Part shown: positions 17,465 through 61,878 of the stretch, one piece after another
Layout: every line of letters starts with the position of its first letter
Position numbering within the stretch: position 1 is the first letter of the stretch
Assembly: GCF_002105155.1 (NCBI RefSeq)
Contig: NW_019028989.1
Coordinates: forward strand, 806,001-870,000
Length of the DNA: 64,000 nt
Source: Lobosporangium transversale
Lineage: Eukaryota; Mortierellomycota; Mortierellomycetes; Mortierellales; Mortierellaceae
Direction: 5' to 3'
Translations under genes and position numbers: made by a program
The notes under the pieces: generated by a model
What the model saw: only the letters and a program-made list of their open reading frames with translations
Database searches by the model: none
Told to the model about the DNA's origin: nothing

Positions 17465-20097
17465 TTATTGAGTTATAACCGCGTTTTCCTTGAGTGCTTC
17501 TAAAATTGCCAAAGCTGTTTCATCCCCAACTGAGTTGGATCCCAAGTCCAAATTCGTTAAAGTTGCATTGGTCTTGAGCGCTTCTGACAATGCCAGAGCT
17601 CCTTCTTTTCCAATTGAGTTGTCCCACAAGTCCAAATTCGTTAAAGTTGCATTAGTCTTGAGCGCTTCTGACAATGCCAGAGCTCCTTCTTTTCCAATTG
17701 AATTGTCCCGCAAGTTCAAAGTTGTTAAAGTTGCATTGGTCTTGAGCGCTTCTGACAATGCCAGAGCTCCTTCTTTTCCAATTGAGTTGCGCCCCAAGTT
17801 CAAAGTTGTTAAAGTTACATTGGTCTTGAGCGCTTCTGACAATGCCAGAGCTCCTTCTTCTCCAATTGAGTTGTCCCACAAGTCCAAATTCGTTAAAGTT
17901 GCATTGGCCTTGAGCGCTTCTGACAATGCCAGAGCTCCTTCTTCTCCAATTGAGTTGCCCCACAAGTTCAAAGTCGTTAAAGTTGCATTGGTCTTGAGCG
18001 CTTCCGACAATGCCTGAGCTCCTTCTTTTTCAATTGAGTTGCTCCCCAAGTTCAAATTCGTTAAAGTTGCATTGGTTTTGAGTGCTTCTAACAATGCCAG
18101 AGCTGCCAGAGCTCCTTCTTTTCCAATTGAGTTCCACTCCAAGTTCAAAGCCGTCAATGCCGTGCTAGCCTTGAGTGAATTTACGAGTCCTTGTAATCCA
18201 ATGGCTCCAGCCGATTTAGCGTTCACCTCATAGGTTAGCTTATGAAGGTGTGATGATCTTCTGGGCTGTAAACTGAGAAGCTTTATGAGATCCAGAGATA
18301 GAGTAATATGGATTGTTTTCATATTACCGAGCTCTATGATGCGAATAAGTCTTTCATATCGCGCGGATGTTAAAGGTACTTTTATGTCGGTGTTTCCTTG
18401 AGTCCGTATAAGCCCAAGTCGAAGATTCGATACATTCGACATCGCCAAAGCATTCTCAAATACTTCAAGATCGATCTCTGTCCAATCCCAACCGAATGTG
18501 ATATCCAAGTCGTAAATACATCTTGCAGTGGTTAGGGCATCGAAAAACCCTCTAGCTCTGTCTCTGGATGCCAATGTGATAACCACTTTACCAAGATGCG
18601 CGTTATATTTACCACTATTCATCTCCACTGCATTTACAAATGCTTTTTGTTCTTTTTCCTCATATATTGAACGACAGTGGGCGAGACAAACCCATTTGGC
18701 ACGGCCTGTTTCGGTCATGATCCTGTACAAATCCCCAAATTGCTTGTCTTCATCATTAGTTCGAAGGTATGTGCCAACGTTTTGAAAATCAGATCCTTCC
18801 AGTCCATCAGAGTCGTCGATTGTAGTAATATTGCTCAAGGTTGAGTCCTCCTTAGAGAGTGCTTCCATATAGTCGATTGAACAATCAATGTCGGCATCTA
18901 TCAAATCTGGGGATGGTGCCAGAGATGCAGACGAGGACATTCCTAGCTTGAGCCACTGTAAAAGGATGAACATGTGCTTTCCATACTTGCAGAAGAATTC
19001 TGTGCCGCTTGGGATCTCATACCCACCATGTTTGATGATATGGAATGGGCTCTGACTATTCTTGCTTATCATTTCAGTGTGGTCTCCACATTCACATAGA
19101 AAATGAAGACGGAACTTGTTCTTCAAGACATTCATTTGGTCCCACTTGGTGTGATCGACAGGTATAATGATAAATAGTCGGGGAGTTGAATATCCGTGAA
19201 GCTCGATATTCTGGGTGAGAATACCATCAACATGCTGTTGAAGCAAGGCAAGTTTGTCGAGGCTTTGATGCTGCACTTTGTCATCCTTCTCCTTAGCTTC
19301 CAATTGCATCCTAGCCATATTATATTGCAGTTTAAGCATCTCAATGTCTTTCTCTTTAGCCTCCAATGTCAGGTTAAGCATTTTATCTTTCAGTTTAAGC
19401 AGCTCGCTGTCCTTTTCTTTGGTTTCCAGTAGTAGATTAATCATCTTATCGTCCTTCTCTTTGGCCTCCAAGAGTAAATCCGCAACTTTCTCAAGGTTAG
19501 AGTTGACCACCTCGATTTGTGCATTGCCATGGGTAATAAGGAATGAATTGAAAGATTGAATCAAGTCTGATAATGGTAAAAGAGTATCCTGAGAGGCCTG
19601 CTTTGCCGACTTTCTCAATGTAGGCAAGTGGATGACGGTGTTATGATTGCTGTTGCTATTGCGGCTGCAGTTGGTATTGATGCTGCTGATATTGCTGGTA
19701 TTGCTGGTGTTGTTGGTGCTGATGTTGTCGCTGTTGCCTAACTGCGGCGCTTCTGTAATGACATCCAGGATCTTGTAAGGATAGAATGCAATGCATGGAG
19801 GCTCTACCCTAATAAAGTAAATCGCGTCAGATTGAATTTTTTTCGTTCGCTTTCCAAAGATAACTGATAGAGCGCACCATAATCAGTTACATACCTGTTC
19901 CCATTAGGGTCTATGAGGAATGGGATGGGAAGTTCCTCCAGCTCGAATCGCTGTGCATCTGGAAACATGTCTCGAATGTCTTGCAGACTCACATGGCAGG
20001 ATGAGTCGGCATTGCTTGCGAAGGTAGAAGCAATCCTGACACAAACTTTTTTAATAATGCCAGCCCTTCGGAATTGTTGGTATTGATGCTCCGTCAT
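17465..20097 (-). CDS. LRR protein (ribonuclease-inhibitor type) with Mortierella-type N-terminal module
   Basis: Model: complement(join(17465..19808, 19895..20097)), 848 aa. The 86-bp intron (GTATGT...TTAG) keeps frame and joins 'IPFLIDPNGNR' to 'VEPPCIAFYPYKILDV'. The N-terminal block (DIRDMFPDAQRFELEELPIPF) matches, from memory, a head module common in Mortierella proteins. Next come an Asn/Ser-rich linker and a heptad-like coiled coil with four EAKEKD/ETKEKD units. A module with 'YSTPRLFIIIPVD', 'RLHFLCECGDH' and 'GTEFFCKYGKH' follows. The C-terminus has about eight 28-residue LRRs of the pattern TxLxLxxNSIGxEGAxALSEALKxNA. It lacks NACHT or kinase motifs. A recognition or scaffold role is an inference. 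It lies wholly inside the inverted-repeat unit and has no frame damage. Confidence 0.85.
17466..18170. repeat. 84-bp tandem array encoding the LRRs
   Basis: About eight head-to-tail units of 84 bp, each encoding one 28-residue LRR. Units are far more alike at DNA level than LRR folding demands, including synonymous sites. The first unit on the coding strand (about 18,090-18,170) has three extra residues. The opposite strand is also open for 175 codons because of the repeated composition. Confidence 0.9.
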
Positions 20098-20325
20098 GTC
20101 GGTAGAAATTCGATGGATGAGGACAGAATGAAAGGTTTCATTTCTCTTTTGTGCACCCTTTTTCTTAAAGCCCTACTGTTACTTTCTAACCACAACAATA
20201 AATGACGTGTTCCTTCTCTGGGCAAAATTGGTGAGCCACCTCCTTGTGTGCATTTTGTGGATATCACACCTTTTCCCATTCAGTTGTCGCTTTATCCCTT
20301 CGTCCGTAACAAGGGCAAATTTGCC

Positions 20326-21168
20326 ATTATAAATGGGCTTAAAATTCAGCAATCCATTGGCATTGTCTTGAAATTTCATTTTAATGTCGAAATAAATGAC
20401 CGAAAACTAAATTGTCATGGAGCTATCCTGGCTTCTTTATTTGTGCAAATAAAAAACTCATGAAAACTTTCGCGTGACCCTAGCATCCTCTTGGGAGCCC
20501 ATTGTATTGTCTATTTATTGACTGGTCTAATAGCAGTGATAATATTCGCCGCCGTAGCCTCGACTTGAAAGGAGGGCAATCTGAGTTGATTCATTCTACC
20601 GCGCCATGGAGCTTGACTAACTTGATCTTTTCTTGTACAGCTCGGCAAGACTTGGTTTGTCACATCGTTTGCTTCCTCGTCTTCTTGCGTTCCCTTGATA
20701 TATCTGGGTTGGTAACCACCGCTAATAGAGTTTGTTGGCCCTGTGGAAACCAGAGGGAACTACACCAACATATCATACCCAAGGTGATACATATATCTAT
20801 GTTGAAGTGAATGGTGAAATGCCTGTGCGTGATTTAGATGTAATGGACATTTACGGCGAAAGAAAGTATTGAAAGGATGTGAGCGATTATGAGAGTAAGG
20901 AAGAAGGGGTTTGTATCCCTTTTCAAGACCTTGGCAACAGAGCATGAGTGGCAGTTGTGATCGCAAGTTGATTCCGGAGAGTCCGCATGAGTTGAACATA
21001 ACAATAGTCATAGTATTAAAGACCCTATCTTTCATGCATGGTATGTGCATTATTATTGTTTTCAGACCTGGCACCAACCATGCGAGGTATTTTTTCCGGC
21101 GTAGGGGGTCCCTAGTGTTATACAACCAGACAGAAAACTTAATAGACATACAAGCACACTAAGAGTGA
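20326..21168 (-). repeat. right arm of long inverted repeat (843 bp)
   Basis: Inverted copy of 14,644-15,485. Differences are limited to the inner ~70 bp: for example GACAATTT against GACAGTTT, CCAATGG against CCCATGG, and one extra A before GCCC. Sequence beyond 20,326 toward the LRR gene is unrelated to that beyond 15,485. The A/T-rich, T-run-containing DNA outside begins at 21,169. Confidence 0.92.
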
Positions 21169-21828
21169 CAAATAATTTTTTTTTTCTACGTGAGTAAACT
21201 GGAGGATACTGATCAAACAATCAAACAGCTGACGTGCTTCTTTTTTGTCTGCACATGCCTTCTTGCATCGCGAGTTTTTTTTATTGTTTCGAGAATATTT
21301 GGCGGTACATGCATGGAATGGGGCGTGGATTCCTTTTTTGTTCATCAATCACTATCAGTTGTGTGTACACGAACATGCACCAGGCTATTGAATAAATAGC
21401 TGAAGCAACTCTTTGGTTTCTGCACACGTAGAATGCATTTTGCATCGCGGCGTTTTTTTTCGTCTTCTAGGCTATTTCATTTTACTCCAAGCAATAAGCG
21501 CATGCAACTACATCACTCCTATCTCCGCCATTGATGCCGGGACCTGAGAGCCAACGAATATCTCTGCTATAATGCAATAGTACTTAAGCTGTTGGAGCAA
21601 AGAGCGACATCTGAACCCATTCTCTCATACAAAAGACTTTTTTTTTCTTTTGTTGTTAGTTTTGACAAGGGTGTAATCACCTGTTTCAAAACCAGCTCCT
21701 ACACACCGAGTCAAATCTGTCAATGTATTGTATTATTCATTACCCCTGTTCAAAATTATAAATCTTCTTTTATTCATTAAATTCCTCACAAAGCACAAAG
21801 CAAGGGCCAGTGCAAACAAAAGAAACTG

Positions 21829-21861
<33 letters not shown>

Positions 21862-22309
21862 TGTAACAAAGGATCGACATCGACACTGTATGCTGTATCT
21901 GGAGATGATTTTCGAATGCTCACTTTGGTATCTCAATGCTATTGTTTCTGCTATTGACTGGGACAAAACCCCAATCCAAACAAAGGAACTGAATAAAGAT
22001 TGATGTGGCCTGTGAAGCAAAGGATCGACATCACAACTATATGAGACAATGTTAAAATTCATCATCAATCCAGGATATAAAAAGGGATCATTGTCTTCCT
22101 CCTTTCCCGCTCGCTCACTCCAAAGTCCCATTCCTTTTACCACTGCCACTTGTTCCTGTATCTTCTCCTCAATATCCTTTATCTATTCACTTTGGATCTT
22201 TAAGCCATAAAAAAGCTCATCCACTTATACATTTGCCGCTCTTTTTTTTATTTTTCATCTCTTTCATCATTTTTTCCTTTTTTCTTTCTCTTTCGCTTAG
22301 ATATTGACC
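21169..22309. other. spacer between inverted-repeat unit and PIN-Fanzor relic
   Basis: No coding region is supported. The phrase AAAGGATCGACATC occurs twice (about 21,867 and 22,019). An A-run lies at 21,829-21,858. The last ~200 bp (from about 22,090) is pyrimidine-rich and ends at CTTTCGCTTAGATATTGACC just before an ATG, typical of a fungal promoter and leader, so the relic may have kept its own promoter. Confidence 0.5.
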
Positions 22310-24185
22310 ATGGGGCTGAAGTCCTTCTTCAAACTGGTTGCGGATCGCGGGGTTTTACCTTCGGAAACTGACGTGGGCGGTTTCTTGGCGGCAAATCCTG
22401 ACCATCCTGCCCATGTAGATCTCTTCGGTACGTTCTATTACGACATTCATCGTAGAGTCGTCCATGCAAATATGAAAAAAAAAATCCATCATTGATGTAG
22501 GAATGTCCCTGGCTATCGAGATAAAGGATCTTTTCAAAACGGACAATCTGGCTATACATATTGATGGGAGACCTTGTACTGAGATAGAAAAAGCAAGAGC
22601 AGAACGGCAAGCCATAAGACAAAAAAATATGGACGCTTTGGAGAACGATATGAGCACCTTCGAGAGAAATTCCCGGAGTGGGGTATGGACTTGTCCTCAA
22701 GTCATGAGGCGCATCCAGAAGGGTCTTTGAGAGTGTCCAGGGAAAGAATCAGCTGTCAACAGACCTTGGCTCTGTCTTCGATGGCTGTCTGTGTGCATAT
22801 GAAGCGGACCCATGCATAGAGTGCCCTAATGAGAAGAATGATAGGATCGTAATATCCCAAAATTCTGATTTTTTTGCGTACGAACGAGTCTGCATCCTAG
22901 TGCGACTCCTTCCACATCGTAGACGGAAGTTTGGGGTTTACGATGTAGACAACATTATCCAAGCACTAAGCCTGTCATCACATGTTTGAGTGTGTACAGG
23001 GAACAAAAGGGGTTTTGATACAGGCTCTCTTTTGTGACATTGGAAGTGATCGCATGGTTCATGGATATCGAGACAAAGTATCCTTGCAGTCACAAGGCAA
23101 AGATATAACTCAGTTGAAACTCAAAGGAACGATTTCTACCAAAAATCTTGTTCTGAATCTACTTGCCTATGATACAACCCAGACGAAGAGACAGCAGCAG
23201 TCTGACGTAGATGAAGAAGACGCCAGCCAAGAACTGGAGCTTTCTCAGGGATTTCTCAACACGACGTGTTCAGAGGCGGCCGGTGAAGACCTAACAGATG
23301 AAGACTACGCAAACATAAACTGGAAGAGGAGCTCCAAACTGCTTGAAAACGTTGAGCTCACATTCAACGAACCAGGGCGATGCCCATCCGCAAACACCAC
23401 AACTATTGTCGGATGTGATCCTGGTATTGTTAACGCCCTTACGTTTTCCTCACTGGACCCTCACAACCCTAACTTGCGGCAAACGGTGAAGGTGAGAAGC
23501 AGGTTCTTGTACCTTCCCGTCCTCTGGTTCAATCACCTGTTGAATAAAAGGAAGCGTGAAAAAGGAATGATTGAGGTTGAGAGCGCCATCCCTGTGTTTG
23601 GAAGGGATACAGACAGGATCAACGAATTTGGATGTGCTTCAAGAGTTCTACGAATCCAGATGGCATCTGAAAAAAAAATGGGACCTACGAAAGGCTCAAC
23701 GAGCTACGTTCGACTACGTGGTACAGCGAGTGTTGAAGATGCTTGGGATAAAGGAGTACTTGTCGTCGGCCTAGGGTCCTTTGAAAGTAGTAAAGGAGTT
23801 CCCAGCAAGCACACTGCTATAACGAGACATCTTGTCACACAGGTATGGCTTTTTTTAAAAAAGTAAGCAAAGCTGGAAAGCCATAGAATCCTTGCTAATA
23901 AACGACTGCCATTTGAAACGCTTAGGTCAAAGCACGAGGACACTTCGCTGTAGGGGCGCACGAATTTTACACCAGCGCCCGACTCTTTGCGATAGCTTTT
24001 TAGAGACGGTGTACCCTCGCTCTAAATATTGCCGGGCATGTAAGGTATTCTTCGACCGTGACGCAGTAGGGGCGGAAAACATCGCAAGAATCGGTCTTGC
24101 TCAAATTGAGAGGCAAGAGAGGCCTGCAAAGTACAAGCCCACGGAAGAGTCGCCTGCTCCGGCTGCAAAGCGCGCACGACGCTAG
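22310..24185 (+). pseudogene. decayed XPG/FEN1-type PIN nuclease fused to a Fanzor (TnpB-like) RuvC nuclease
   Basis: Read in pieces across shifted frames. From 22,310: MGLKSFFKLVADRGV and HVDLFGTFY, the XPG N-terminal signature with its first acidic residue. From about 22,485: AIHIDGRPCTE, then EKARAERQAIR. From about 22,723: LCAYEADPCIE and IVISQNSDFFAYERV, the XPG-I block. From about 22,985: TIVGCDPGIVNALTFSS, the RuvC-I motif of TnpB/Fanzor. From about 23,625: LQEFYESRWHLKKKWDLRKA. From about 23,755: LVVGLGSFESSKG. An intron at 23,843-23,925 (GTATGG...GCTAATAA...TTAG) joins LVTQ to VKARGHFAVGAHEFYTSA. A shifted end gives CPTLCDSF...YCRACKVFFDRD then GAENIARIG, the zinc ribbon and RuvC-III. 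At least five frame changes are seen, one in an A10 run. Most likely a pseudogene; a few shifts could be sequencing errors. Both nuclease assignments rest on motif order; that both come from one gene is inferred. Confidence 0.78.
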
Positions 24186-24518
24186 ACACAAGTATTTGGG
24201 TGCCGGCACACCCACAAAAAACTTGTAAGTTCTGTTTATTTTCGTCTCCTGTATCCTCTCTACCTAATTTTTTGCCCCTGAATTTCTGGACTAACTTTAA
24301 AAACCGTACAGATCAACAGATAATTGAGTCCAATCTTTGTTGAGACGCGTTTCTAGACTATGTGGCTGAGGCCGAGTTCAAATTCCGATGGCAACTTTAA
24401 AAAGGGACGTGTCGATGCTGACTGGTTCGCTTGATATTGGTGAATTGGGTTACTGTACCACTCTGTTTGCTTTCATCATCTCATTTCACCTCCATCTTCA
24501 TCTGCTCTACTCTTCATC

Positions 24519-24591
<73 letters not shown>

Positions 24592-24644
24592 CTTTCTTTC
24601 TTTGCCCATCTTTTCTTGCTGTTTCGTACAACCTCATCTCAGCC
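24186..24644. other. promoter and leader of the small membrane-protein gene
   Basis: No gene. A CTTT/TTTC microsatellite (24,519-24,566) is followed by a run of about 25 T (24,567-24,591). This pyrimidine-rich DNA ends about 30 bp before the next start codon, as often in fungal 5' leaders. Confidence 0.6.
24519..24566. repeat. (TTTC)n microsatellite
   Basis: About eleven perfect tetranucleotide units, directly followed by a T-homopolymer, in the leader of the gene at 24,645. Confidence 0.9.
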
Positions 24645-25184
24645 ATGCCTCGTTCAACTTTTGTCAACCACGACTTTGTCCTCACTGTGCTTGCTATTTA
24701 CGGTGCAACAGTCGCTTTCACTCGTTGGTTCCCTGAAGCTGACCTTGTTGCAGTCGAGGCCCATCCTTCGACCTATGTCAAGACTTTTGAGGCTGCGTCT
24801 CAGTCCCAATTGACACTTTATGCCGCCCATCTTGCTATCGATATCATCCGTGTCTTATCTCTTGCTGTCCTCGAGTCTGCCGCCTTTTCGTTTGCGTTCA
24901 TCGATGATGTCTTTGAGCCCTTCTCGTATGCGTTCATCCTCTTCTCTATGGTCATAGTAACTAAGGATATCTTGATGCTTGGATGCCTCCACGCCTTCCC
25001 TGCATCCAACGACCTTGCCGCTGCCAAAGTTGCAGAGTTGATGCCTCTCTCTGCGACGGTGGAGTACGGTCTTTTGCTTTGCGGAGCCTTGTCCTTGGCC
25101 AAGGGACTTTACCAGTGGACTTATGCCATTGGACGTGACAAGCGTCAGGTCATTGACAAGGAGGAAATCAAGAAGACTCAGTAA
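24645..25184 (+). CDS. small multi-pass membrane protein, function unknown
   Basis: Single exon, 179 aa, starting MPRSTFVNHDFVLTV. I do not recognise the family. Hydrophobic segments lie near residues 8-25 (FVLTVLAIYGATVAF), 55-85 (around LTLYAAHLAIDIIRVLSLAVL), 88-110 (FIDDVFEPFSYAFILFSMVI) and 135-155 (YGLLLCGALSLAKGLYQW), so three to four membrane helices are likely. The tail is charged (GRDKRQVIDKEEIKKTQ) and probably cytosolic. The gene has a strong pyrimidine-rich leader and an A-run right after the stop, and its codon use is clean, so I take it as real. It converges on the Rpp30 gene. Confidence 0.8.
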   Translation: MPRSTFVNHDFVLTVLAIYGATVAFTRWFPEADLVAVEAHPSTYVKTFEAASQSQLTLYAAHLAIDIIRVLSLAVLESAAFSFAFIDDVFEPFSYAFILFSMVIVTKDILMLGCLHAFPASNDLAAAKVAELMPLSATVEYGLLLCGALSLAKGLYQWTYAIGRDKRQVIDKEEIKKTQ

Positions 25185-58966: not shown

Positions 58967-61247
58967 TTATTTGCCCTTCTTCTTTTGGATAGACTTAAAG
59001 TACGCGTTTGAGGACCCAGCTTGCCTGATTGCAGTATCCATTGTCGTTTTTGCCTTTATAACTCTGTCGTTCAGTGTTGGTCCTTCAGTCTTCAGGACCT
59101 CAGCCAGAGTAGCAAAGATAATTCTTCGCTTGAGCATATACTGGTTCCTAAGATTAGGATTCCAGCCTTTGCGCCAGTCCTTTTGGAACCTATTCAAACT
59201 CCAAATCGATGGCTTTGCCCCCTGGGCCGTAAACCATTCATCCCAAAGAGGAAAAAGAGGGGTGACCCTTGACAACATAGAGAAATTTGGGGCTGCAGCT
59301 CTGACCTGGTCAATTGGGAGCTGCAAGTAAGTCTCTGCAATCTTATCCGCTAAACATTCCAACTTCATTGTTTCCATGGCTTCATTTATCCCTCCATCTT
59401 CCTCTTGTTCCTGCACCTCGGGGTCTACTTGGTCTAGTTGCTCATTTTGGCCTGGTTGCTCGTCTTGGCCTGGTCGCTCATCCTGCTCTGGTTGCTGCTC
59501 CAAAGCATCCATCCCCCTTTGTTCAAATCCCCGCGGCTGCTCCTGGAGATGCTGCCTTGGAGGTATATGATGTATAAGGTCATTCAACTGTTGTTCTTGC
59601 TCTTTCGCTTGACGCTGCTCTTGTTGCGTCAGAATGCGATGCTCGTTCTCCATATCACTAGCTAAATGCCCAAAAGACCTGGCGGTTGTCTTCGTAAGGT
59701 TCGACATTACAGTTTGAAGCCCTTGTACGATGGTTATCATCTCACGATGCATATGACTGCATGTTCTAGACCAGCCAGCATTACTATTCTCCGCTGTAGC
59801 TTGGAGTGCGCCCATAAAATCATCACGTACGTAATGATCCAAAGATGACACGCTCGATTTGATGGCTTGAAGCTCTTGATGGATGACTGGAGCATTGAAA
59901 CGGAGACTGTCGTTTGTTGGTGATTGTGTCTTCTGCATGGCATCGTGAAGTCGCAAAGAAAACTCTTGGAACAGTTGCGACGAAAACACAGGGTTACTAG
60001 TGAAAACGTGGTGCTGGCTGTAGATACACAATGGATCGCCATTGCACGCCATCAGAGCAACTGCATCTTGTAAAATAACCTTGCGCAAGTGGGCTAGGAT
60101 AAGCATGATTCGCATGGCTGGAATGTACTCAGCTGGATAAGGTACTGACTCATTGTCAGGACGATTCAGATCTTCGGGACGATCCATCATAACGTTCTCC
60201 ATCCATCTGGCCCAATCGACATTGTCTGGAAACAGCTCCTCAATGAATGGAAAGATTTGCTTCTGTAATTCAACAGGCGGTATAACGGTGTTCCGCGGAA
60301 GCCAGAAATCCTCATTCTCGTGGAGAAATCCGGCCATTTTAAATGGTACAGTCTGCGCTACCGGACTAAGGTAATGCGTTACCAAGCGGCGATGGTTCCA
60401 ATTACCATGTTGGGCAATATCTTCGATGCTAGCCCCATTGGCTTGCGCATGTTGCGCCCCAGCCTTACGGCCACTATGAGTAACCTTGGATGATGTGTAA
60501 TGCGCTAGCTTCATCACCTCGCTTAGAGATCTGAGTATGGCTATGCTATTGGTTAGGAAACAGAGTACAAAAACTTCATGTAATGGCGTATTTGCATTTC
60601 TGATAATTTCACTTGCCTGTAGAGAGTCGCAGCATCCATCGCTTTGTATTTGTCAGAGGCATGTACAAGGTACTGGGATTTCCAGTCATGCATGCGGAAA
60701 TTTGGAGTAGATTCTTTCGTCTGTTGTGTAAGGTAAAGGGGTATTTTAATCATGGATGAATATTAATAGACAGCTTATATGCTGAGTTAATCTTCAACAG
60801 CAACCCATAGAAGCAGCCAATACGTACCATCCACTGCTCGAATAGATAAAAAGCGAGGCATCCAACAGGGCAAATCTCTACGTCCTTGTTACGAATAAAT
60901 ACAGAATGGAGCGTATGATCATTGTTCATTTTTCCTTGAGGGATTGCTATTACAATCCCAAGTGCGAACTGGTGTCCATTTCCAGCAGTCGCAAAGTGGT
61001 GGGGAAATAAGTGGCTCACTAAGGCATCTCGTATACTTTGTCCCCGAGTGATCATAAAATGATTAAATGCAAAACACAGACGATTACGCGCGCCAACTAG
61101 CTTCTGTGTCCTGGAGACAGCACTCAGATGCTTATAGCTCCTGCTCCACGAGATCTTCATAAATTTCTTGAACATAGATAGAGGATATCCCGCACCAACT
61201 GTCAGTTGCAGAACGTCCTGGGACGACGTTCTTTTGTTCTGGTTCAA
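58967..61247 (-). CDS. Crypton tyrosine recombinase (DUF3504 with GCR1/Ndc10-like tail)
   Basis: Crypton elements move by a tyrosine recombinase. Model: complement(join(58967..60530, 60617..60720, 60828..61247)), 695 codons. The intron at 60,531-60,616 uses a GC donor (CAG|GCAAGT); only this choice keeps frame. Exon 1 has RNRLCFAFNHFMITRGQSIR (catalytic Arg region), later IPQGKMNNDHTLHS and VEICPVGCLAFYLFEQWM. Exon 2 has NFRMHDWKSQYLV. Exon 3 has THSGRKAGAQ (HxxR), QHGNWNHRRLVTHYL (His/Trp then the Tyr nucleophile) and VALMACNG. It ends in a GCR1_C-like DNA-binding domain with FPLWDEWF, PSIWSLNRFQKDWRKGW and KRRIIFATL. Active-site residues look intact. The 5' end is unclear: the frame opens with a TTG and the first ATG is at 61,175, so an upstream exon is missing or the copy is 5'-truncated. 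No terminal repeats are expected for Cryptons, and element limits are not visible. Confidence 0.85.
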
Positions 61248-61878
61248 AAGTAACGTTCATAATCTGTTTCTAGCTCTGCTGATATAAAAAAAAAAAATAA
61301 ATAAATAAAGAAAGAAGGCGTGAGACTGAGGCCATAGAGGGTCGGCGTACGGCTCTAAGCAAATGGGATACATAATGGGTCCTTTGCTCAGAAGCACTCC
61401 TACTCTCTTAGAGGGTGTTGGTATTGCGTTTTATTGAATCCATCTTTTTTTTTTTTCTAAAGGGGTTACGGGGACAAGAGACAGGAACGCCGAGAAAGTA
61501 AATGAGTGAGTGGGAAGGAGAGCTTACTCGGTTTAGAAGGGTTTGGAAAGGTGTTGGGTGTAGCAATGAAGAAGGAAGAAAAGGAATGCATGAATGCATG
61601 AGACATTTTTTTTTTTTTTTTTTTTTCCCAGTATAGCCTGGGAGGTATTTGCAGAGGTTACAAGCAGGATTACAATTGGTGCGAAAACACAGTCACATAT
61701 ATACTTATTGAATACAAATTTTGTAATTTAAATTGTTAAGATTTCATTTTGTAATCCGATTACAGCAAACTACCGTTTCAGTAATAAAAAGATTTGCTGA
61801 TTTAGATCATTTAAGCTTTGACACGGAAAAAATACACATTCCCTTGTGTCAGGGAGACACATAAAACAAGAAGAATCG

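Follow-up and report, generated by a model that had tools for sequence, protein, structure and literature searches.

Eukaryotic and viral Fanzors are said to have been surveyed by Jiang and colleagues in 2023, and we know of no description of an RNA-guided nuclease, whether Fanzor or TnpB, fused to a second, structure-specific DNA nuclease. Fanzors, and their carriage by mariner-group elements, are already known (PMC3627910, in the passages seen), and we found no published description of an XPG-Fanzor fusion. Among open-licence full texts there was no match for Fanzor with XPG, PIN domain or Mortierella, nor for TnpB with Mortierell-; those containing both TnpB and flap endonuclease dealt, by their titles and the start of their abstracts, with no such fusion, and no title on one stood among the matches listed for Fanzor and fusion. 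Here we analysed a stretch of 64,000 nucleotides from Lobosporangium transversale (contig NW_019028989.1, positions 806,001 to 870,000, forward strand), called the window below. It holds an internally deleted, dead derivative of a transposon-borne two-nuclease gene, in which an XPG/FEN/EXO1-fold module precedes a Fanzor1. Our full reading, in which the fusion would make an RNA-guided cut, process it with its XPG half and so have the element copied back, has in our estimate a probability of about two in three.

That one protein carries both nuclease modules had been proposed in a preliminary description of the window, and its relatives bear this out. Protein searches, by a method that needs shared 5-letter words and in part scored only about 8000 candidates, returned eleven relatives, all from genera of the Mortierellaceae: Lobosporangium (P0001, P0009, P0011), Benniella (P0002, P0004), Podila verticillata (P0003), Podila horticola (P0008), Mortierella antarctica (P0005), M. 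alpina (P0006, P0007) and Entomortierella beljakovae (P0010). Both modules are complete in P0003 (1260 residues), P0006 (1186) and P0007 (1502); P0002, P0004 and P0005 have both with parts missing, and in the remaining five one module is absent, wholly or for the most part. They are named 'hypothetical protein' or 'unnamed protein product', P0009 being labelled in UniRef by a Cas12f1-like TNB domain, so that intact but unannotated relatives do occur in Mortierella and Podila, as had been stated for the former. In L. transversale, where two families of copies can be told apart (about 31% identity in the XPG part; the window copy aligns with family 1), the family-2 copy L036 on contig C51 reads after splicing through both modules in one open frame of 1209 codons, past the zinc ribbon, with its last ~48 residues in another frame than in other copies. 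Intact homologues that join the two modules in a single frame, spliced or annotated, are thus present in several Mortierellaceae, and the absence that was to refute the proposal does not hold. Trees built from eight sequences, one for the XPG part and one for RuvC, differ only in where family 1 is placed (support 74 and 56), and the fusion is therefore old and was inherited as a unit.

The first module was recognised by its fold. A profile of the N-terminal half of intact relatives had FEN1 as its best solved structure (E 1.7e-4), and in the predicted model of an intact homologue, proposed earlier as a check, both folds were matched, residues 2-316 by FEN/EXO1 and a region within residues 442-1158 by Fanzor. 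With the seven residues that we take to bind metal in FEN1 as reference, P0003 has D33, D85, E170, D172, D195, D197 and D247; these acids are kept in the eight aligned N-terminal parts with a single exception, copy L024, which has N for the second D of DSD. The XPG parts are 28-49% identical to each other (75% for the Podila and M. antarctica pair). We conclude that the N-terminal module (residues ~1-320) belongs to the XPG/FEN/EXO1 superfamily by fold and active-site acids; cutting activity is predicted.

A Lys/Arg-rich linker joins it to the second module, for which the profile of the second half found SpuFz1 as best solved structure (E 0.0048; 1.3e-4 for the RuvC part alone), and the modelled region contains REC, WED, RuvC and TNB. 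The DPG motif at RuvC I is present in P0003, P0006, P0007, P0009, L036 and the window (CDPG), with DSG in P0004. The relocated catalytic Glu lies six residues ahead of the first zinc cysteine (E-x6-C) in P0003, P0006, P0007, P0009 and L036, in a region that aligns with DEYKTS of SpuFz1. The fusion agrees with the Fanzor fingerprint given in a passage of PMC3627910, D-X(125,275)-[TS][TS]-X-X-C4 zinc finger-X(5,50)-RD, except that its first cysteine pair is C-x4-C, not CxxC; the spacing from DPG to Glu, 170-218 residues, exceeds the 120-160 of the mining pattern quoted in part of PMC10711439. The profile searches suggested earlier gave a mixed result: the OrfB/TNB zinc-ribbon profile exceeded its gathering score of 26.3 bits in the intact copies P0003 (33.2) and L036 (28.9), and stayed below it in family 1 (23.9), P0004 (14.2), P0001 (13.8) and the window (14.3), with no match in the incomplete P0002, while the window pieces gave no XPG match. 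The NCBIfam model guided_TnpB scored 25.2 bits on P0003, far below its cut-off. We conclude that the second module (~440 to the end: REC/WED, RuvC, zinc ribbon) is a complete Fanzor1, for which RNA guidance is predicted.

Translation of the window confirmed the motifs first reported there, at their place and strand: MGLKSFF at the ATG of 22310, then HVDLFGTFY and AIHIDGRP in the 22476 frame, the XPG-I motifs CAYEADPCI and VISQNSDFFAY in the 22708 frame, the Fanzor motifs VGCDPGIVN and LVVGLGSFESS in the 22970 frame, and FFDRDAVGAENI with zinc cysteines near the end of the gene. The longest open piece (298 residues, 22970-23863) has 158 matches in its own genome, many 80-95% identical; because of these and of the structure matches of both halves, the motifs are not due to chance. 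On the broken pieces Pfam gave nothing for XPG, and its best match was Cas12f1-like_TNB (E 0.048, 14.3 bits), the pieces being too decayed for a firm one. Part of the exon 1 remnant, at C13:828735-828983, is matched by the family-2 XPG exon (E 1.1e-4). The element was delimited as follows.

20293..20294, no strand: TA at the left junction, placed by comparison with left ends of other copies; the element's left end is TCCCTT at 20295
20295..24320, plus strand: whole transposon copy with the broken gene, ~4.0 kb; right end sharp and common to the copies, left end by comparison
20295..22309, plus strand: leader of ~2 kb in which no clear open reading frame was recognised; found in other copies too, with indels
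22310..22982, plus strand: exon 1 remnant, XPG/FEN-type nuclease module, frame-broken
22982..22983, plus strand: junction of the internal deletion, with the end of exon 1, intron 1, exon 2, intron 2 and the start of exon 3 gone
22983..23842, plus strand: exon 3 remnant, Fanzor RuvC part with the DPG motif (VGCDPG) and VVGLGSF
23843..23925, plus strand: intron 3, GTATGG...GCTTAG, 83 bp, also in the 10 other copies aligned
23926..24185, plus strand: exon 4 remnant with the catalytic Glu (EFYTSA), zinc ribbon without its first Cys, FFDRDAVGAENI and stop
24198..24213, plus strand: GGGTG/CACCC hairpin in the noncoding stretch after the stop, a candidate scaffold of the guide RNA; all 14 distinct right ends have it
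24225..24311, plus strand: intron-like stretch of the 3' noncoding end (GTAAGT, donor, 14/14; CTAAC, branch, 13/14; TACAG, acceptor, 14/14)
24321..24322, no strand: TA at the right junction; the host DNA downstream would supply a guide

The bounds first proposed, 22310..24185, therefore enclose the gene remnant, but not the element with its leader. When the window was aligned with 10 other copies, 1910 of 2015 compared positions matched the majority of the others. Against these copies its largest lesion is a deletion of ~1561 nucleotides at 22982/22983, accompanied by five further small indels of 1-44 nucleotides. The copy is broken, as was first stated, but one of the 'about five frame changes' counted then is the 83-bp intron (23843-23925), and the large deletion had been missed. 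Likewise, a zinc ribbon is present, but the CxxxC..CxxC pattern ascribed to it is not: the first pair is C-x4-C in intact copies, and its first cysteine is lost in the window. The window also reads NSD where most intact XPG modules have DSD.

Three frame changes in the copies proved to be GT..AG introns at identical positions, of 84, 83-97 and 83-86 bp in the five copies measured. Exon 1 of family 1 is ~1037 nucleotides long, and the copies encode ~1080 residues. Taken by itself, the XPG exon gave 105 matches (119 of 124 candidates scored), among which 14 family-2 and 11 family-1 copies span its full length without a stop. In pairwise comparisons of this exon, nonsynonymous differences were proportionally fewer than synonymous ones (pN < pS) in 19 of the 20 family-2 pairs with a defined ratio (one at 1.46; one more pair undefined) and in 5 of 6 family-1 pairs, few differences underlying all these counts.

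All 11 aligned sequences stop at the same base, 24322 in the window, after which the flanks diverge. Genome-wide, pattern searches found 38 right ends (at most 2 mismatches) and 16 left ends (at most 3), the reversed control patterns having no genome matches; the left end of the window copy is an older variant that these searches miss. From such sharp common ends across copies we conclude that the element is a transposon, 20295-24320 in the window; other copies with both ends found measure ~4.1-5.8 kb. Family 1 has its own ends with TA at both junctions, and the copies read hold no other transposase. A Helitron type was weighed for family 1 and dismissed, because its ends lack the CTRR of Helitrons and TA stands at both junctions. 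The family-1 copy on C14 has paralogous empty sites at C82, C12 and C114, which show precise insertion (filled site TTTTAATA, element, TAAGGTAAT; empty site at C82 ATTAATATAAGATAAT).

Further arrangements of copies and ends were noted. The copies on C66 (L048/L011) and C14 (L042/L016) have a common right flank (96% over the 683 bp tested) and different left flanks, the C66 left end being precise, which may reflect a one-ended or repair-copied event. Around two left ends on two contigs (L045 and L046, C48 and C50), 3038 bp are 100% identical, which may be a recent duplication or an assembly duplicate. At G000 C44:229222-233487, two equal-scoring inverted family-1 matches within 4.3 kb perhaps form a large palindrome.

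Family-2 elements (~6.4 kb) start with TATA-GCCCGTTCCATT and finish with AATGGGACGGAC-TATA; among the ends read, 5 of 6 on the left and 7 of 9 on the right have this TATA (exceptions L034 and L039). Their terminal sequence, G[CT]CCGT[CT]CCATT, is Sailor-like, and sites of this repeat were found genome-wide. L056 is a ~7-kb element with nearly identical ends: 6976 bp, 1359-bp inverted repeats, a 607-residue transposase and TATA at both ends. The Sailor described in part of PMC8533490 for this species or group has 6979 bp, 1362-bp repeats, 607 residues and TATA, so L056 fits Sailor by its length, repeat length and TATA flanks, not by phylogeny. Its transposase matched Pfam DDE_3 with an E value of 0.095 only and offers a single candidate D-82-E pair, D329-E412; on the minus strand of L056 (1839-2144), a short frame has a weak likeness to HSDR_N, the N-terminus of the type I restriction R subunit (E 0.0019, below cut-off). 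Since no DD82E transposase reading frame was seen in the family-2 elements read, family 2 has the appearance of non-autonomous elements whose ends are Sailor-like, and we assign it no further.

The two families were also found side by side. In L034 (near 7450) and L038 (near 5020), left ends of family-1 type directly adjoin the right end of a family-2 element or lie close by it, which suggests that the family-2 terminus (GGACTAT) is a favoured target. In L034 from ~7706, the C37 family-1 copy has the Sailor-like terminal sequence TATAGCCCGTTTCATT ~255 bp inside its left end, a sequence absent from the window copy. All nine family-2 loci L031-L039 contain, upstream of the gene, an inverted family-1 relic of 405-525 bp, equivalent to window 22983-23507 and ~85% identical.

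The flanks gave a one-sided signal. In family 2, 14 of 16 sites have G just before the left TATA (17 hits, less one with another core), against 3 of 22 for the equivalent position on the right, reading outward; among Sailor-type ends, counted on both sides and with fragments included, 22 of 74 have it (84 hits, less 10 with other cores). In family 1, C precedes the left TA in 17 of 19 cases and A precedes that C in 15 of 19, against 6 of 27 for the equivalent right-end base (the 27 of 38 right ends with flank). Fisher tests gave p = 7.5e-6 (family 2, left versus right), 2.7e-5 (versus Sailor-type ends) and 1.3e-5 (family 1; 3.5e-5 once duplicated flanks were removed). The empty sites of the C14 copy carry the A of its flank, and the adjoining element end is constant, 14 of 16 family-1 left ends being exact over 38 nucleotides, although the search itself favours such ends; this suggests that the conserved left base is part of the target, not of the element. 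Read from the flanks, the candidate target-adjacent motif would end in TA, ACTA-like for family 1 and GTATA for family 2. In the parts of the sources seen, published systems have this motif on the left side (PMC10711439), and that of SpuFz1, CATA, also ends in TA (PMC10432273). The conserved base could instead reflect a target preference of the transposase, which we hold to be somewhat unlikely: the two inverted repeats of family 2 are not quite alike, which could let a transposase take its direction from an asymmetric target, and in the window copy the left TA follows T instead of C, but two families with different ends are conserved on the left only, on the side of the motif in published systems, and Sailor-type ends with a nearly identical repeat show G at the low rate given above.

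From the stop codon of family 1 to its right end, the order is hairpin, intron-like stretch, 11 nucleotides, end. A conserved noncoding RNA had been suggested for this 3' end. Its hairpin is kept in all the distinct right ends, the tip pair being weakened in two and one loop base missing in one. A search of 22000-24700 against Rfam, with E values up to 1 allowed, gave no match. Covariation carries no signal, the copies being too alike. Length changes among the 14 sequences fall mostly between donor and acceptor. Family 2 has an equivalent plan in a stretch of 65-92 nucleotides (seven copies folded), with no evident sequence similarity to family 1 besides an A-run and GTAAGT. In published Fanzor1 systems the target duplication lies in the guide RNA scaffold and the RNA extends ~15 nucleotides past it (PMC10711439, in part). 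From the sequence plan of this 3' end one may imagine that the spliceosome finishes the guide RNA, removal of the intron setting the scaffold hairpin ~25 nucleotides from the guide, an idea that we regard as doubtful.

In the mechanism that we propose, an RNA from the element's right end, its guide supplied by the flanking host DNA, would steer the protein to a target beside the TA-ending motif, where the Fanzor half would open an R-loop and its RuvC would cut. The XPG module would then act on that R-loop, cutting where single strand meets double strand, or would trim a 5' flap or the ends; XPG takes part in R-loop processing (PMC8235791, in the part seen). The outcome would favour templated repair, with the element copied back into the vacated site or into an empty homologous site. 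Family 2 would probably be mobilised by a Sailor-type transposase in trans. That the fusion is a natural RNA-guided dual nuclease, whose XPG-fold half cuts the junctions or flap of the Fanzor R-loop and leaves a processed end promoting copying of the element, is a tentative proposal, to which we give a little less than even odds.

Several points speak against our reading. The fusion protein is known here only from sequence and predicted structure, and the model has a mean predicted local distance difference test (pLDDT) of 58 and a predicted template modelling score (pTM) of 0.43, the packing of the modules being not defined. The five family-1 copies fully spliced by our script, out of 10 given, all have at least one frame break, and among the 7 family-2 copies spliced out of 9, the six other than L036 end early, at 370-657 residues; these breaks are decay or assembly error. 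The empty sites of the C14 copy are compatible with a TA duplication in family 1 or with none, and the family-2 copy L038 has no 3' splice donor. Finally, Pfam gave XPG_I scores of 13.9 and 13.0 bits in intact copies (cut-off 24.9) and did not find XPG_N, and because curated scores are not reached the module is filed as XPG/FEN-fold, not as FEN1, EXO1 or XPG; the NCBIfam model fen_arch, at 13.2 bits on P0003, is likewise far below its cut-off.

This divergence leaves room for an XPG-fold module that is no active nuclease on the guided target, binding DNA structures or docking a host factor while only the Fanzor half cuts. Accessory domains are known on Fanzors, as in PpFz1, whose FRI domain binds cyclophilin (PMC11423790, in part), but the seven FEN1 metal-binding acids are kept despite 28-49% identity, which is unexpected for a binding-only domain, and we consider this alternative improbable. 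A chief role as the element's transposition enzyme, or as a modulator of host repair, without RNA guidance is very improbable: the family-1 and family-2 elements read hold no separate transposase gene, but family 2 shares its ends and TATA flanks with Sailor elements, which encode their own transposase, both the fingerprint and the entire fold of Fanzor are preserved, and the flank conservation is one-sided. Neighbouring genes without relation to each other, or an artefact of gene prediction, could be imagined from the window alone, with its halves in different frames, and from database models holding one module only (P0001, P0009, P0010, P0011), but have next to no chance given an identical order in four genera, the single frames of P0003, P0006, P0007 and spliced L036, splice sites consistent across copies and agreeing trees.

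If the XPG half does work on the guided R-loop, evolution would here have found a way to steer the repair that follows a guided cut. The system also offers a test of what Fanzors bring to transposons, with many similar, partly intact copies in one genome, which also provides a predicted target-adjacent motif and paralogous empty sites.

Elsewhere in the window, positions 58967-61256 (minus strand) contain pieces of a Crypton-like tyrosine recombinase in separate open frames (NDC10_II, 4.5e-11 and 6.2e-8; GCR1_C, 5.5e-5), probably another decayed mobile element. At 17465-19882 (minus strand) lies an 805-residue open frame with tandem, near-identical leucine-rich repeats (LRR_6, 3.1e-32).

The fusion can be compared with several known systems. 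Like the Fanzor1-bearing Mariner elements of Bao and Jurka (2013, PMC3627910), it places a Fanzor between Tc1/mariner-group-related ends; the passages seen of that paper describe no nuclease fusion, and XPG, flap and Mortierella are absent from its text. With Sailor (DD82E; PMC8533490, in part), family 2 shares the terminal sequence and, mostly, TATA at both ends, but has the XPG-Fanzor gene in place of a transposase gene and lacks the 1.36-kb repeats of L056. The first module has the fold and all seven metal-binding acids of FEN1, EXO1 and XPG (Rad2), and differs from them in scoring below the Pfam cut-offs, in being joined to a Fanzor and in being carried by a transposon. PpFz1 is likewise a fungal Fanzor1 with an extra domain, but its FRI is a RuvC insertion that binds cyclophilin (PMC11423790, in part), whereas the extra part here is N-terminal, with a nuclease fold and active site. 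With Fanzor1 in general (PpFz1, SpuFz1, GtFz1) the fusion shares the DPG motif, the relocated Glu six residues before a four-cysteine zinc ribbon, the RD motif, the fold, carriage by a DNA transposon and a 3' noncoding end that reaches the element's right end; it is set apart by its N-terminal XPG/FEN/EXO1-fold nuclease, its C-x4-C first zinc pair, the longer DPG-to-Glu spacing (170-218 residues) and the intron-like stretch in its 3' noncoding end.
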